Of a stretch of 64,000 nucleotides of DNA, positions 30,207 through 35,769 are shown piece by piece. The number at the start of each line of letters is the position of its first letter. Positions within the stretch are counted from its first letter, which is position 1. The translations under genes were made by a program, and so were the position numbers. Source of the stretch: Luteibacter jiangsuensis (GTDB taxonomy: Bacteria > Pseudomonadota > Gammaproteobacteria > Xanthomonadales > Rhodanobacteraceae); assembly GCF_011742555.1 (NCBI RefSeq), contig NZ_JAAQQR010000002.1:248001-312000 (forward strand). Reading direction: 5' to 3'. The notes below the pieces were generated by a model. The model worked only from the letters and a program-made list of their open reading frames with translations. It did not search any database and was not told the DNA's origin.

Positions 30207-31388
30207 GTGTCCGTCATCCGCATGCAAGACCTCGACCTGCGCGGCAAGCGCGTGCTGATCCGCGAAGACCTGAACGTTCCCGTCGAGGACGGAAAGATCA
30301 CCTCCACCCAGCGACTGGACGCCTCCCTGCCCACGATCGTGGCGGCCCGCGACGCCGGTGCAAAGGTCATGGTCATCTCGCACCTCGGCCGCCCGAAGGA
30401 AGGCCAGTTCGACGAAGCGTCTTCGTTGAAGCCGGTGGCCGAATGGTTGGGCGACAGGCTCGGCAAGCCCGTGCGCCTCGTGCGCGATTACCTCGACGGC
30501 GTGGACGTCGCCGATGGCGAGGTGGTGGTGCTGGAAAACTGCCGCATGAACGTCGGCGAAGGCAAGGACGACGAAGGCCTGTCGAAGAAGTATGCGGCGC
30601 TCTGCGACGTTTTCGTCATGGACGCCTTCGGCACCGCCCATCGCGCTCAGGCGTCCACGCATGGCGTGATCCGCTTCGCGCCCATCGCGGCGGCCGGCCC
30701 CCTGCTCGCGAAAGAACTGGACGCCCTGGGCAAGGCGCTGGAAAACCCCGACCATCCGCTGCTCGCCATCGTCGCCGGCTCCAAGGTCTCGACCAAGCTC
30801 GAACTGCTGCAGAACCTCGTCGACCGCGTCGACCAGCTCATCGTGGGCGGCGGCATCGCCAATACCTTCATCCTCGCGGCAGGCCACAAGGTCGGCAAGT
30901 CGCTGGTGGAAGCCGACCTGCTCGATACGGCGAAGAAAATCATGGCCGATGCCAAGGCGCGCGGCGCCGACGTCCCTGTGCCGACCGACGTCGTAGTGGC
31001 CACGGAATTCGCCGCCACCGCGAAGGCCACGGTGAAGCCGGTCGACCAGGTCGGCGACGACGAAATGATCCTCGACATCGGTCCGGACACGGCGAAGCGC
31101 TATGCCGAGCTGATCGCGAAGGCGGGCACGGTGGTATGGAACGGCCCCGTGGGCGTGTTCGAGTTCGACGCCTTCGGCAAGGGCACGGAAACGTTGGCGC
31201 GCGCCATCGCGTCGTCCAAGGCATTCTCCATCGCCGGCGGCGGCGACACCCTGGCCGCGGTGGACAAGTACGGTATCGAGGACGGTGTCTCCTACATCTC
31301 CACCGGTGGCGGTGCGTTCCTCGAATTCCTCGAAGGCAAGGAACTGCCGGCCGTTGCCGCGCTGAAAGCGCGGGCGGAAGCGAAGTAA
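30207..31388 (+). CDS. pgk: Phosphoglycerate kinase
   Basis: 393 residues. [52 protein letters not shown] and GGGDTLAA are the PGK substrate and nucleotide motifs. It transfers phosphate from 1,3-bisphosphoglycerate to ADP in glycolysis. The start is GTG at 30207 with GGAG six bases upstream; an internal ATG at 30222 is possible but would shorten the N-terminus. Its TAA overlaps the ATG of the HAD phosphatase gene by one base (TAATG). Glycolytic neighbours tkt, fba, pyk and gap follow within 12 kb. Confidence 0.97.
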
Positions 31389-32038
31389 TGCTCATCCTGT
31401 TCGATCTCGATGGCACCCTGATCGATTCGGAAATTGGCATCCTCGCCGGCGTGCGCCATTCGCTGGCGAGCGTCGGCGCGGAAGCGCCCGACGACAGCGT
31501 GCTGCGCTCGTGGATAGGCCCGCCCCTGCGGGTGAGCTTCGGCGCCGTCCTTGACGGTGACAGCGATCGCGTGGAAGCCGCGGTAGAAGCTTACTCGCAG
31601 CGTTTCCGAGAGACAGGCTGGTCCGAGCACACCGTTTACGAAGGCGTCGGCGACATGGTCGCCGCGCTCGCGGAGGCTGGACATCGCCTTGCGGTCGTCA
31701 CCAGCAAGACACGCTCGCACGCCGAACCGATCGTTGCCCACCTGCCCTTCGGTCACCTCTTCGAACGCATCTACGCGCCGCCGCCGAGCACGGCGCACAG
31801 CGAGAAAGCGGAAATGATCGCCGCCGCCCTGGCAGACTTCGCCCATCCCGCCGAAGACACGCTGATGGTCGGCGACCGGCTCTTCGACATGGAAGGGGCC
31901 GTCGCCAACGACGTGCGCGGTCTCGGCGTGCTCTGGGGCTTCGGCGACCGGGAGGAACTGGAAGGCGCCGGTGCATGGAAGGTAGTGCAGACGCCGGCGG
32001 AGATCGTGCTGCTGGCGGGGGAAGTGATCGCGGGGTAG
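31388..32038 (+). CDS. HAD superfamily phosphatase (phosphoglycolate phosphatase-like)
   Basis: 216 residues. HAD motif I is FDLDGTLIDS with nucleophile Asp6 and acid/base Asp8; a helical cap domain follows (about 15-80), motif II is VVTSKTR and motif IV is MVGDRLFDMEGA. The Gph/PGMB-type pattern suggests a small phosphoester such as 2-phosphoglycolate, but the exact substrate cannot be read. It starts inside the pgk stop codon (TAATG) and is therefore coupled to it; the open frame that continues upstream of the ATG is a shadow of pgk. Confidence 0.87.
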   Translation: MLILFDLDGTLIDSEIGILAGVRHSLASVGAEAPDDSVLRSWIGPPLRVSFGAVLDGDSDRVEAAVEAYSQRFRETGWSEHTVYEGVGDMVAALAEAGHRLAVVTSKTRSHAEPIVAHLPFGHLFERIYAPPPSTAHSEKAEMIAAALADFAHPAEDTLMVGDRLFDMEGAVANDVRGLGVLWGFGDREELEGAGAWKVVQTPAEIVLLAGEVIAG

Positions 32039-32187: not shown

Positions 32188-32556
32188 ATGGCCCCGCTTC
32201 CCACTTCGACAACAGCCCTGAGATCCCTTCTTGGCGCCCTCTTTGTGGTGATTTCTCTCAATGCCACTGGAACGACAAGCGAGGACTCGCATCCGAGGTG
32301 GGAATCCCCTCTCGCTCGCGATGTTTCCAAGGTTGACCGCGAACGTCACGCCACCAATTCGCCATCGCCCATCGCTCCGATTGCACAGCAGCCAGGCCGC
32401 CTTGCACAGACACTGACCAACGTGGCGATATTCGCGCTGAGCGCCACGGGCAGGGTTTCAGGGGCTGGGCGCGATACAACGGGCGATATTGGAAAGCTTC
32501 CGCTAGGCACACGCAATGATCCTTTCTCCAGCGGGATACAGGGGTCAATCAAGTAG
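32188..32556 (+). CDS. Small predicted secreted protein, unknown
   Basis: 122 residues. An N-terminal hydrophobic stretch (SLLGALFVVISLNATG, residues 13-28) looks like a signal peptide; the rest is polar, rich in Ser, Thr, Pro and Arg, with no recognisable motif. AGGAGA at 32178-32183 gives it a good ribosome site. It lies between the HAD gene and the lectin gene in a stretch whose base and codon use are less GC-biased than the neighbours. Could be a real accessory gene or a non-conserved frame; an immunity or helper role for the lectin is only a thought. Confidence 0.45.
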   Translation: MAPLPTSTTALRSLLGALFVVISLNATGTTSEDSHPRWESPLARDVSKVDRERHATNSPSPIAPIAQQPGRLAQTLTNVAIFALSATGRVSGAGRDTTGDIGKLPLGTRNDPFSSGIQGSIK

Positions 32557-32701
32557 TGATGCTGCCTGCCGCAGGAATTCGAAGAAACCATTCCAAGCAG
32601 CGATCGCTCGGGTCTAGACGACAAGGAAAAGTCGGAAAGAGAGTCTGACGACCCGAATTACGGCCGAGACCTACTTCCTCGATTTGTTGAAGCACATATC
32701 T

Positions 32702-32734
32702 TCGTGGCGCGCCGCAACTCGCAGCGCGCCACGA
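32702..32734 (+). promoter_or_regulatory. Perfect 11-bp inverted repeat in lectin gene leader
   Basis: TCGTGGCGCGC at 32702-32712 pairs with GCGCGCCACGA at 32724-32734 around an 11-nt loop, ending seven bases before the ribosome site of the lectin gene. It could be an operator, an mRNA hairpin protecting or controlling the leader, or the end of the upstream transcript; no T run follows, so a plain terminator is less likely. Confidence 0.45.
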
Positions 32735-32750
32735 ACTCCAGGGAGGAGAT

Positions 32751-33557
32751 ATGACGATGGTGCAATCGATGAAAGCCATGGCAGCCCTTGCGCTCGGTAC
32801 AAGCGCTCTTCTTTTCGCAGACGCCACTTGGTCGAGAGTCCTCAATCCCGGCGAAAGCATTCTGGTCGGTCAGACGTTGCCGTCGGACGATGGCCGCTAC
32901 TATGCGACCTTGCAAGCAGATGGCAACTTCGTGGTCTACCAGAACTATGGTCATCGGCGCGCGGTGTGGTCGACACGCACAGCTAACAAGGGAGCCGTGA
33001 GGGCCACCATGGAGCACCACGGTGATTTTGCTCTGTTCGATGCTTCAAACAATGTTGTGTGGCGAACGAAAACCAACGGCCCTTACAGGAAGTTCGCGGT
33101 CACGGAGCATGGCCAAGCCATGGTACTGACCGTGCGGGACTGGTGGACTAGCGGCACATCCAATCGTAACTTTCGCCAGGAACATGCCCTCATCTTTCCA
33201 TATGGATTCGTTTTCGAAAAAGGAAAGACTTATTCAGAGGGTATGTACAGCTTCAGCTTTCAGATCGACGGTAATGTCGTCGTTCGGCGGCACGGTGTTC
33301 CGATCTGGGCCACTTATACAAATGGCGCAACCCACGCCTCGGTCGATCTTGGTCTCGTCGTAACCGGCGCAACGGGCGAGATGTATAGCACCCGATCAAA
33401 AGCTCAGGCATTCCATCCCGCAAATCATGGTGACGTTCCGGGAACACGACTTTTTACAACGCTCGGCTCGTTCGCTGTCTTTCCCGATGGAAACGTCGTG
33501 GCCTACCGCGCCGCGCCCGTTTGGTTCTCGCACCAGGATTGGCACGAAGGGCGGTAA
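32751..33557 (+). CDS. Secreted tandem B-lectin (MMBL) protein, candidate LlpA-type lectin-like bacteriocin
   Basis: 268 residues. A signal peptide (KAMAALALGTSALLFADATW, cut near 26) precedes two beta-prism B-lectin modules (about 28-140 and 150-255). The first holds a complete mannose-binding motif QADGNFVVY (55-63); a worn copy is near 87-96 (MEHHGDFALF); the second module has QIDGNVVVR (171-179) and FPDGNVVAY (244-252). Two B-lectin domains in about 270 residues is the layout of LlpA/putidacin L1 bacteriocins of Pseudomonas and Xanthomonas, which kill relatives after binding D-rhamnose-containing O-antigen (literature knowledge). Killing activity is inference. GGGAGGAG precedes the ATG. 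Confidence 0.8.
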   Translation: MTMVQSMKAMAALALGTSALLFADATWSRVLNPGESILVGQTLPSDDGRYYATLQADGNFVVYQNYGHRRAVWSTRTANKGAVRATMEHHGDFALFDASNNVVWRTKTNGPYRKFAVTEHGQAMVLTVRDWWTSGTSNRNFRQEHALIFPYGFVFEKGKTYSEGMYSFSFQIDGNVVVRRHGVPIWATYTNGATHASVDLGLVVTGATGEMYSTRSKAQAFHPANHGDVPGTRLFTTLGSFAVFPDGNVVAYRAAPVWFSHQDWHEGR

Positions 33558-33585: not shown

Positions 33586-33615
33586 CAAAAGGAGGGGCCC
33601 CCTACGGGGCCCCTC
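33586..33615. terminator. Terminator between lectin gene and transketolase
   Basis: A perfect 10-bp stem GAGGGGCCCC / GGGGCCCCTC with loop CTAC at 33592-33615. On the minus strand it is followed by CCTTTTG, so it should end tkt transcription 19 bp after its stop; on the plus strand it can also block read-through from the lectin gene. Confidence 0.85.
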
Positions 33616-33633: not shown

Positions 33634-35646
33634 TTACTTGATCACACTCTTCACCGCATCCACCACAGCCGTGGTCGTGATGCCGAAGTGCTCGTAAAGC
33701 TTGTCGATCGGTGCGGACGCACCGAAGGTGGTCATGCCCACGGCCTTGCCGTCCAGGCCGATGTACTTTGCCCAGAAGTCCTCGCTGGCCGCTTCCACGG
33801 CCACGCGTGCGCGGCACCAGGAGGGAAGCACGCCTTCGCGATACTCCACCGGCTGCGCATCGAATTCCTCGGTGCAGGGCATGGACACCACGCGGACGGG
33901 AACGCCCTGGTCGCCCAGTGCGTGCGCGGCTTCCACGGCGATGCCCACTTCCGAGCCCGTGGCAATGATGATCGCCTTGAACTTCTCGCTCGGCTCGAAG
34001 AGTACGTAGCCGCCCTTTTCGATGTCCGCCACCTGCTGCTCGGTGCGCGGGTTGTGCTTCAGGTTCTGGCGGGAGAACACGAGGCAGGACGGGTTACCGG
34101 CGCGCTCGATGGCCTTCTTCCACGACACCGCGGATTCCACGGCATCAGCGGGGCGCCAGACGCGGTTGTTCGGGATGAGGCGCAGCGAACCCAGGTGTTC
34201 GACGGGCTGATGGGTGGGGCCGTCTTCGCCAAGGCCGATCGAATCGTGCGTGTACACGTGGATGGCGTGCGCAGGAATGAGCGCCGACATGCGCACGGCA
34301 TTGCGGGCATAGTCCGAGAACACCAGGAACGTGGCGTCGTACGGAATGAATCCGCCGTGCAGGGCAAGGCCGTTGGAGATGGCGCTCATGCCGAACTCGC
34401 GCACACCGTAGTGAATGTAGTTACCTTCGGCGCCCGCGGTAGCGACGTTCTTCGAGCCCTTCCAGATGGTGAGGTTCGACGGCGCAAGGTCGGCGGAACC
34501 GCCGATCAGCTCGGGCAGCAGCGGGCCAAACGCGTCGAGCGCCATCTGCGAGGCCTTGCGCGAAGCGACTACCGGGCCTTCGGCCTGCATCTTCTTGATG
34601 TAGGCATCGGCACCGTCCTTCCAGTTTGCCGGCAGTTCGCCGCTGAGGCGGCGCTTGAGTTCGGCGGCAAGCTCGGGGTGCGCCTTCGCATAGGCATCGA
34701 ACTTGTCGTTCCATGCCTTTTCCGCCTTCGCACCGCTTTCCTTGGCACTCCAGGAGTCGTACATCTCCTGCGGAATCTCGAACGGGCCGTACTTCCAGCC
34801 CAGCTTCTCGCGCGCGGCCTTCACTTCGTCGGCGCCGAGCGGCGCGCCGTGCGAGGACTCCTTGCCTTCCTTGTTGGGCGCACCGAAGCCGATCACCGTC
34901 TTGCAGATCACCAGCGAAGGCTTTTCGCTCTGCGACGTGGCCGCCGCGATCGCCTTCTTGATGGCGTCCGCGTCGTGACCGTCGACCGGCTTGCCGTCGT
35001 CGCCCAGCACCACGTTCCAGCCGTAGGCGCGGAAGCGCGCCGGCGTATCGTCGGTGAACCAGTCGTGCACTTCGCCGTCGATCGAGATGCCGTTGTCGTC
35101 GTAGATGGCGACGAGCTTGCCGAGCTTGAGCGTGCCGGCCAGCGAGGCCACTTCGTGCGAGATGCCTTCCATCAGGCAACCGTCGCCCACGAACACATAG
35201 GTGTGGTGGTCAATAATGTCGTGCCCCGGACGGTTGAAGCGCGCCGCAAGCACCTGCTCGGCGAGTGCGAAGCCCACGGCGTTCGCGAGACCCTGGCCTA
35301 GCGGACCGGTGGTAGTCTCCACGCCGGGCGTGTGGTGGTACTCGGGATGGCCCGCCGTGCGATAGCCGAGCTGACGGAAATGCTTGAGGTCTTCGATACC
35401 GAGGTCGTAGCCGGTGAGGTGCAGCAGGGCGTACTGCAGCATCGAGCCATGGCCGTTCGAGAGAACGAAGCGGTCGCGGTTCGGCCAATGCGGATTCGAG
35501 GGGTTGTGATGCAGGAAGTCGCCCCAGAGAACCTCGGCGATGTCGGCCATGCCCATCGGCATGCCCGGATGGCCTGATTTGGCGGCTTCCACACCATCCA
35601 TGGCCAGGGCGCGGATCGCATTGGCGCGTTCGCGGCGTGTCGTCAT
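33634..35646 (-). CDS. tkt: Transketolase
   Basis: 670 residues. The thiamine-diphosphate motif begins GDGCLMEG and ends at the YDDN loop; [25 protein letters not shown] and the pyrimidine-domain [13 protein letters not shown] match transketolases. It swaps two-carbon ketol units between pentose- and hexose-phosphates, joining the pentose pathway to glycolysis genes around it. The ATG at 35646 has GGAG seven bases upstream and gives the normal N-terminus; a frame to 35694 has no site. Reads leftward and is separated from the divergent porin-like gene by 226 bp. Confidence 0.97.
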
Positions 35647-35769
35647 CGGCGTTCTCCAATAAGGGGCGGCGGAAAAAACGCGATTGTCGCGCATTGTCTG
35701 CCTGCTTGTCGTGGACGAACCGACCGCGGCCTTGAAGTTAACCCCGCCTTAATCTTTTGACCCCGTTTT

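Follow-up and report, generated by a model that had tools for sequence, protein, structure and literature searches.

Does a gene for a tandem lectin in a soil bacterium of the genus Luteibacter encode a weapon against relatives and, if so, how would its producer avoid being killed by it? The question arises from the gene at 32751-33557 of the window, by which we mean the whole 64,000-nucleotide stretch of DNA that was analyzed, taken from the genome of the strain here called G000 (G000:C13:248001-312000).

The lectin gene and its protein

The open reading frame has an ATG start and a well-formed ribosome-binding site, and its product is the sole lectin of its kind in the G000 genome. Its features are:

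32740-32747, plus strand: ribosome-binding site AGGGAGGA of the lectin gene
32751-33557, plus strand: tandem B-lectin protein, LlpA-like, 268 residues
32751-32825, plus strand: probable Sec signal peptide, residues 1-25, assigned by inspection (the N-terminus of the structural model is low-confidence and unfolded)
32832-33146, plus strand: N-terminal B-lectin domain, residues ~28-132 (profile match, model and structural comparison)
32913-32939, plus strand: QADGNFVVY (N1), the sole intact QxDxNxVxY motif
33186-33536, plus strand: C-terminal B-lectin domain, degenerate, residues ~146-262 (sequence match, model and structural comparison)
33261-33287, plus strand: QIDGNVVVR, equivalent of the C1 motif, with Y changed to R
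33480-33506, plus strand: FPDGNVVAY, third motif, in the C-domain, with Q changed to F

A sequence-only reading of this DNA had described a 268-residue frame with two B-lectin modules and quoted these three motif strings, all of which are present. It had also proposed a signal peptide, and residues 1-25 do look Sec-like by eye (K8, a hydrophobic stretch, and ADA followed by T at residues 23-26); the protein is apparently secreted.

Homology of the predicted product to the B-lectins is far above chance. The profile searches that the earlier reading had recommended matched both the Pfam B_lectin family (E 7e-5, 23.7 bits, gathering score 32.4) and the NCBIfam family LLB_putidacin (NF033557; E 7.6e-27, 94.4 bits, cut-off 275, in a model that covers the putidacin L1 family only), though each match fell below its curated cut-off. 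The top relatives of known structure are pyocins L1 and L2, which are LlpA bacteriocins of Pseudomonas aeruginosa (phmmer E 1e-18 to 5e-17; L2 1.3e-18, L1 2.4e-17). An AlphaFold2 model, built from a nine-row alignment that included prophage-borne Pseudomonas-type LlpAs and an L. anthropi relative, contains two beta-prism domains (mean pLDDT 75.6, pTM 0.69), as the sequence-only reading had anticipated. Its best structural match is pyocin L1 with bound D-rhamnose (Foldseek E 1.6e-14; Z 16.9, rmsd 4.1, 213 residues, with the entire length covered and about 27% of the structurally aligned residues identical), and in the fold comparison non-lectin folds came nowhere near it. The plant tandem MMBL protein SCAfet, which has the same fold but is not a bacteriocin, scored below pyocin L1 (Z 13.4).

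Is the protein then an LlpA? It has two B-lectin (MMBL) domains in one chain of the ~250-290 residues typical of that class, and its patchy distribution, low GC and mobile or cargo location are likewise LlpA traits. With pyocins L1 and L2 it shares the tandem arrangement, a similar length, a colinear alignment and an intact N1 motif; it differs from them in having a signal peptide, an altered C1, no C2 and no C-terminal extension. That extension, of ~30 residues in LlpA, is absent in that the alignment with pyocin L1 stops at chain residue 226, corresponding to model residue 262 of 268, and the lectin chain terminates ten residues past W258. By description, the protein resembles LlpAXcm761 of Xanthomonas, which also has a Sec signal peptide (as do the Burkholderia LlpAs), a mature length of 248 residues versus ~243 here, and no more than part of the C-terminal motif set, one motif being missing. 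The LlpBs of Pseudomonas, which consist of a single B-lectin domain with a C-terminal tail, differ from this tandem protein. Because the extension is absent, C2 is lost and the NF033557 score is 94 versus 275, we regard the product of 32751-33557 as an LlpA-like variant and claim no strict LlpA membership for it. The LlpA-like layout proposed by the sequence-only reading, with its two domains, is supported.

The lectins of Luteibacter relatives have a Cys-containing C-terminal tail. We considered whether such a tail was recently lost in G000, since TGCGTCGGC right after the stop codon resembles the CVG of the relatives, but the stretch is too short to argue from. Beyond the genus, a class-wide scan with NF033557 gave almost no matches (one genome was sampled per species in this and in the order-wide scan), and a search of plasmids and sequenced phages gave distant matches only.

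Which domain would bind a glycan?

In pyocin L1, D-rhamnose is bound at the C1 and C2 motifs of the C-domain, with C2 the major determinant (PMC3916391). Aligned to pyocin L1, our lectin has the altered C1 and no counterpart of C2, and its FPDGNVVAY deviates from QxDxNxVxY in the Q alone. The case for D-rhamnose is weak because C1 is altered, C2 is lost and the intact motif lies in the N-domain, and binding of this sugar by the lectin is not supported. The sequence-only reading had further proposed that the producer itself carries a D-rhamnose O-antigen. This is plausible because the window contains manC (GMP_PMI), phosphomannomutase and gmd, along with genes for an RMD-like reductase and Wzm/Wzt-like transporters; gmd exceeds its equivalog cut-off, and the adjoining reductase has hits to GDP-6-deoxy-D-mannose reductases with solved structures (E 7e-37 and 5e-34). 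The GDP-D-rhamnose route is thus a plausible one, but the genes lie ~22 kb from the lectin gene and any link to the lectin would be conjectural.

Using profiles built from seven prophage LlpAs, we found that in all five tandem lectins of Luteibacter the first domain scores higher with the LlpA C-domain profile than with the N-domain profile, as do all the single-domain lectins of the genus, whereas the LlpBs of Pseudomonas reportedly cluster with LlpA N-domains. Among seven tandem lectins (five from Luteibacter, two from a sister genus) mean identity is 47% for the first domain and 33% for the second, although in this small sample the closest pair, G000 and G005, goes against the trend (53% and 57%). 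In Pseudomonas LlpAs it is the C-domain that is more conserved (PMC6240691), a pattern that is reversed in these seven protein sequences. The first domain is most likely the better candidate for binding a glycan, should one be bound, because it has the intact N1 motif, resembles the LlpA C-domain and is more conserved.

A lectin hot spot between gph and tkt

The surroundings of the gene are as follows:

31388-32038, plus strand: gph-like gene for a HAD phosphatase, bounding the hot spot on the left
32188-32556, plus strand: small gene for a secreted protein, from a family specific to this locus (copy in G015 and at other gph-tkt loci)
32701-32735, no strand assigned: 15-nt inverted repeat just 5' of the lectin ribosome-binding site
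33592-33615, no strand assigned: GC-rich, terminator-like inverted repeat where the lectin gene and tkt converge
33634-35694, minus strand: transketolase gene tkt, convergent with the lectin gene and bounding the hot spot on the right

In all 23 Luteibacter species gph and tkt flank a gap, which varies from 434 bp to more than 10 kb and in the window has a GC content of 57.5% versus 62-67% in its flanks, in keeping with the accessory insert that had been suspected from the sequence. Luteibacter has 19 stand-alone lectin genes in all, and this gap houses 17 of them, distributed over 12 of the 23 species (a count that takes in the G007 copy, which has two stops, and leaves out a fragment in G003). 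The lectins at the site are tandem in G000, G002 (C-domain disrupted), G004 and G005 and single-domain in the rest; up to three copies occur at one site, and decay is evident in G003 and G007. The gph-tkt intergenic region is a lectin hot spot of the genus, which is a new finding here. A non-toxic lectin found in every strain would have spoken against the earlier reading; the gene is instead patchy.

A close comparison is with the sister species G015. Its borders are 92-94% identical to those of the window at the DNA level (tkt 94%), and its BamA is 99.7% (POTRA) and 99.4% (barrel) identical, yet its gph-tkt gap contains an acyltransferase gene and a single-domain lectin that shares just 52% identity across the lectin domain. 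Given near-identical flanks and BamA but such divergent lectins, we conclude that lectin alleles were swapped between G000 and G015.

Could these genes encode harmless lectins? A secreted protein acting on glycans of the producer itself or of a plant or fungal host, in adhesion, biofilm matrix or coating, with the acyltransferase tuning the same glycan, has in its favor that B-lectins have many non-toxic uses, that the genus also has hydrolases with B-lectin domains and that the tandem lectin of G331 adjoins exopolysaccharide genes. We nevertheless think it rather unlikely in view of the replacement of alleles between sisters, the copy-number variation (up to three at a site), the decay in G003 and G007, the linkage of one relative to bamA (below) and the fact that the closest matches are bactericidal pyocins. 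Still less likely, to the point of being a remote prospect, is a decoy that covers a surface glycan and hides phage receptors. Variable sites of this kind often respond to phage pressure, and the hot spot does hold surface-modifying genes, but the pyocin-like tandem structure and the bamA-linked relative fit killing better.

Low GC and the vicinity of integrases are LlpA hallmarks (PMC6240691). The tandem lectin of G013 (L078:3509-6100) adjoins what by eye are integrase and AlpA-like fragments, as in prophage or island cargo. The gap of more than 10 kb in G007 (L071) contains, besides its decayed lectin, methyltransferase, GtrA-like, epimerase, split transketolase-like and UDP-glucose-dehydrogenase-like genes (all named by eye). 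Separately, several species encode hydrolases of 550-600 residues that look GDSL-like and have a B-lectin domain at the C-terminus (L015, L016, L017, L022, L027), a family apart from the stand-alone lectins.

The small gene at 32188-32556, to which the sequence-only reading had drawn attention, has a copy 83% identical at the protein level in the same place in G015. Its product matched nothing in Pfam, NCBIfam or PHROG. As far as we have seen, the family is confined to gph-tkt (L069, L070, L080, L086 and others), with the C-terminal pattern ATGxISG..RDDTxDIGK...GxIK/R. Because in G011 the small gene accompanies an acyltransferase where no lectin is present, we regard it as a marker of the locus and not a dedicated partner of the lectin. 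Most LlpA genes of Pseudomonas other than aeruginosa have a Com-like zinc-finger gene upstream, which is absent here; the small gene was ruled out as such a regulator, having zero cysteines and no family match. By eye, the inverted repeat at 32701-32735 is not found upstream of the relatives' lectins. A 21-bp palindrome, TATCCACA-n5-TGTGGATA, recurs near lectin and small genes at the gph-tkt loci of G001, G003, G008, G018 and G022 (L065, L067, L072, L083, L087, respectively) and is absent from that of the window.

Acyltransferases at the same site

Alongside lectins, the hot spot harbors OafA-like AT3-SGNH acyltransferases (PF01757 plus PF19040) in 15 species, and 17 of the 22 matches to them genus-wide (E 1e-30) are located there. 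Nine of the 23 species have both genes at the site, three the lectin only, six the acyltransferase only and five neither. This co-occurrence is not significant by itself and, therefore, the argument from the acyltransferase depends on the common site. In most of the nine species with both, the two genes are divergent, start facing start. These enzymes probably alter the cell-surface sugars that such lectins bind. Most gph-tkt lectins of the sister species are LlpB-like, with a single domain, a C-terminal tail and the link to an OafA-like acyltransferase, and among 34 mutants resistant to LlpB, 24 carried lesions in an OafA-like gene (PMC6465234). In G000 a genome-wide search at E 1e-30 found no AT3-SGNH relative. 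We also looked for an acyltransferase remnant in the window, in the interval from the small gene to the lectin gene, and found none, the similarity to G015 ending within the small gene.

Do the two genes form a self/non-self module, in which the lectin attacks cells in one O-acylation state and the linked acyltransferase sets the state of the producer? This is a refinement of the bacteriocin reading, so that our confidence in the two overlaps, and we hold it to be possible but doubtful. The common hot spot and the requirement of the OafA-like gene for LlpB killing (PMC6465234) speak for it, as does G000, where the one weak match (9.5e-11) has an incomplete layout and protection would come through absence of the enzyme. 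Against it, several species have the acyltransferase without the lectin and three the reverse, and the substrate of the enzyme is only putative.

BamA and a bamA-linked relative

LlpAs selectively kill relatives and have no immunity gene of their own; they target BamA, whose loop 6 is polymorphic. Across the 23 species, mean pairwise identity of BamA drops to 49% in the segments flanking the VRGF motif, by which we located what we take to be loop 6, from 95% in the POTRA domains and 91% in the remainder of the barrel. No other part of BamA varies as much across the genus. Similar variability has been reported for Pseudomonas (PMC6240691). Since loop 6 varies in many BamA proteins, lectins need not be the driver.

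In the sister genus, tandem lectins occur in 2 of 16 genomes, and one of them is of special interest because of where it lies:

L169:3716-8079 (G392): bamA-lpxD region with tandem lectin and duplicated lpxD 3' fragment

The lectin gene is 129 bp downstream of bamA and before lpxD, with the lpxD end duplicated; in readable relatives of G392, lpxD directly follows bamA. With five separate lectin locations known, chance would rarely place an insertion beside the one gene known to encode the LlpA target, although it is a single case that was noticed post hoc. Loop 6 of the G392 BamA was also considered as a possible odd allele, but at 76% identity to that of its nearest relative it is unexceptional.

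Conclusions

Judging from homology and genomic pattern, we think it probable, with appreciable room for doubt, that 32751-33557 encodes a secreted LlpA-like tandem-lectin bacteriocin. We favor this reading because pyocins L1 and L2 are the best sequence matches of known structure and pyocin L1 is the best match to the model; because the site is an allelic hot spot with replacement between G000 and G015; because loop 6 is polymorphic and one relative is bamA-linked; because OafA-like genes share the site and are hit in LlpB-resistant mutants; and because low GC and the integrase fragments of G013 are LlpA hallmarks. The absent extension, the lost C2 and the scores below curated cut-offs count against it.

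As to how it would work, we infer secretion to the outside, glycan docking, BamA contact, killing and self-protection. The lectin would be exported by Sec and then released; one domain, most likely the N-terminal one with its intact motif, would dock on a surface glycan of relatives, and the other, faster-diverging domain would probably help to select the target, most plausibly BamA loop 6, contact with which would block outer-membrane protein assembly. The producer would be spared by a difference in its own receptor (BamA loop 6 or an O-acylated glycan), not by an immunity protein. More tentatively, and without much confidence, we suggest that gph-tkt might be a dedicated cassette pairing a lectin bacteriocin with an enzyme that sets the producer's receptor state (receptor-modification immunity), that the bamA-linked lectin might follow the same logic with a protein receptor, and that domain order might be reversed relative to Pseudomonas, conserved glycan binding coming first and diverging selectivity second.

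The novel parts of this work are the hot spot common to lectins and O-acyltransferases and the bamA-linked relative. They bear on whether LPS and BamA are receptors of lectin bacteriocins outside Pseudomonas, and on how producers that lack an immunity protein survive their own lectin. The genus provides natural allele pairs, near-identical sisters that have different lectins with or without a linked O-acyltransferase, and these pairs, together with the bamA-linked relative, make self-protection by receptor change genetically testable.
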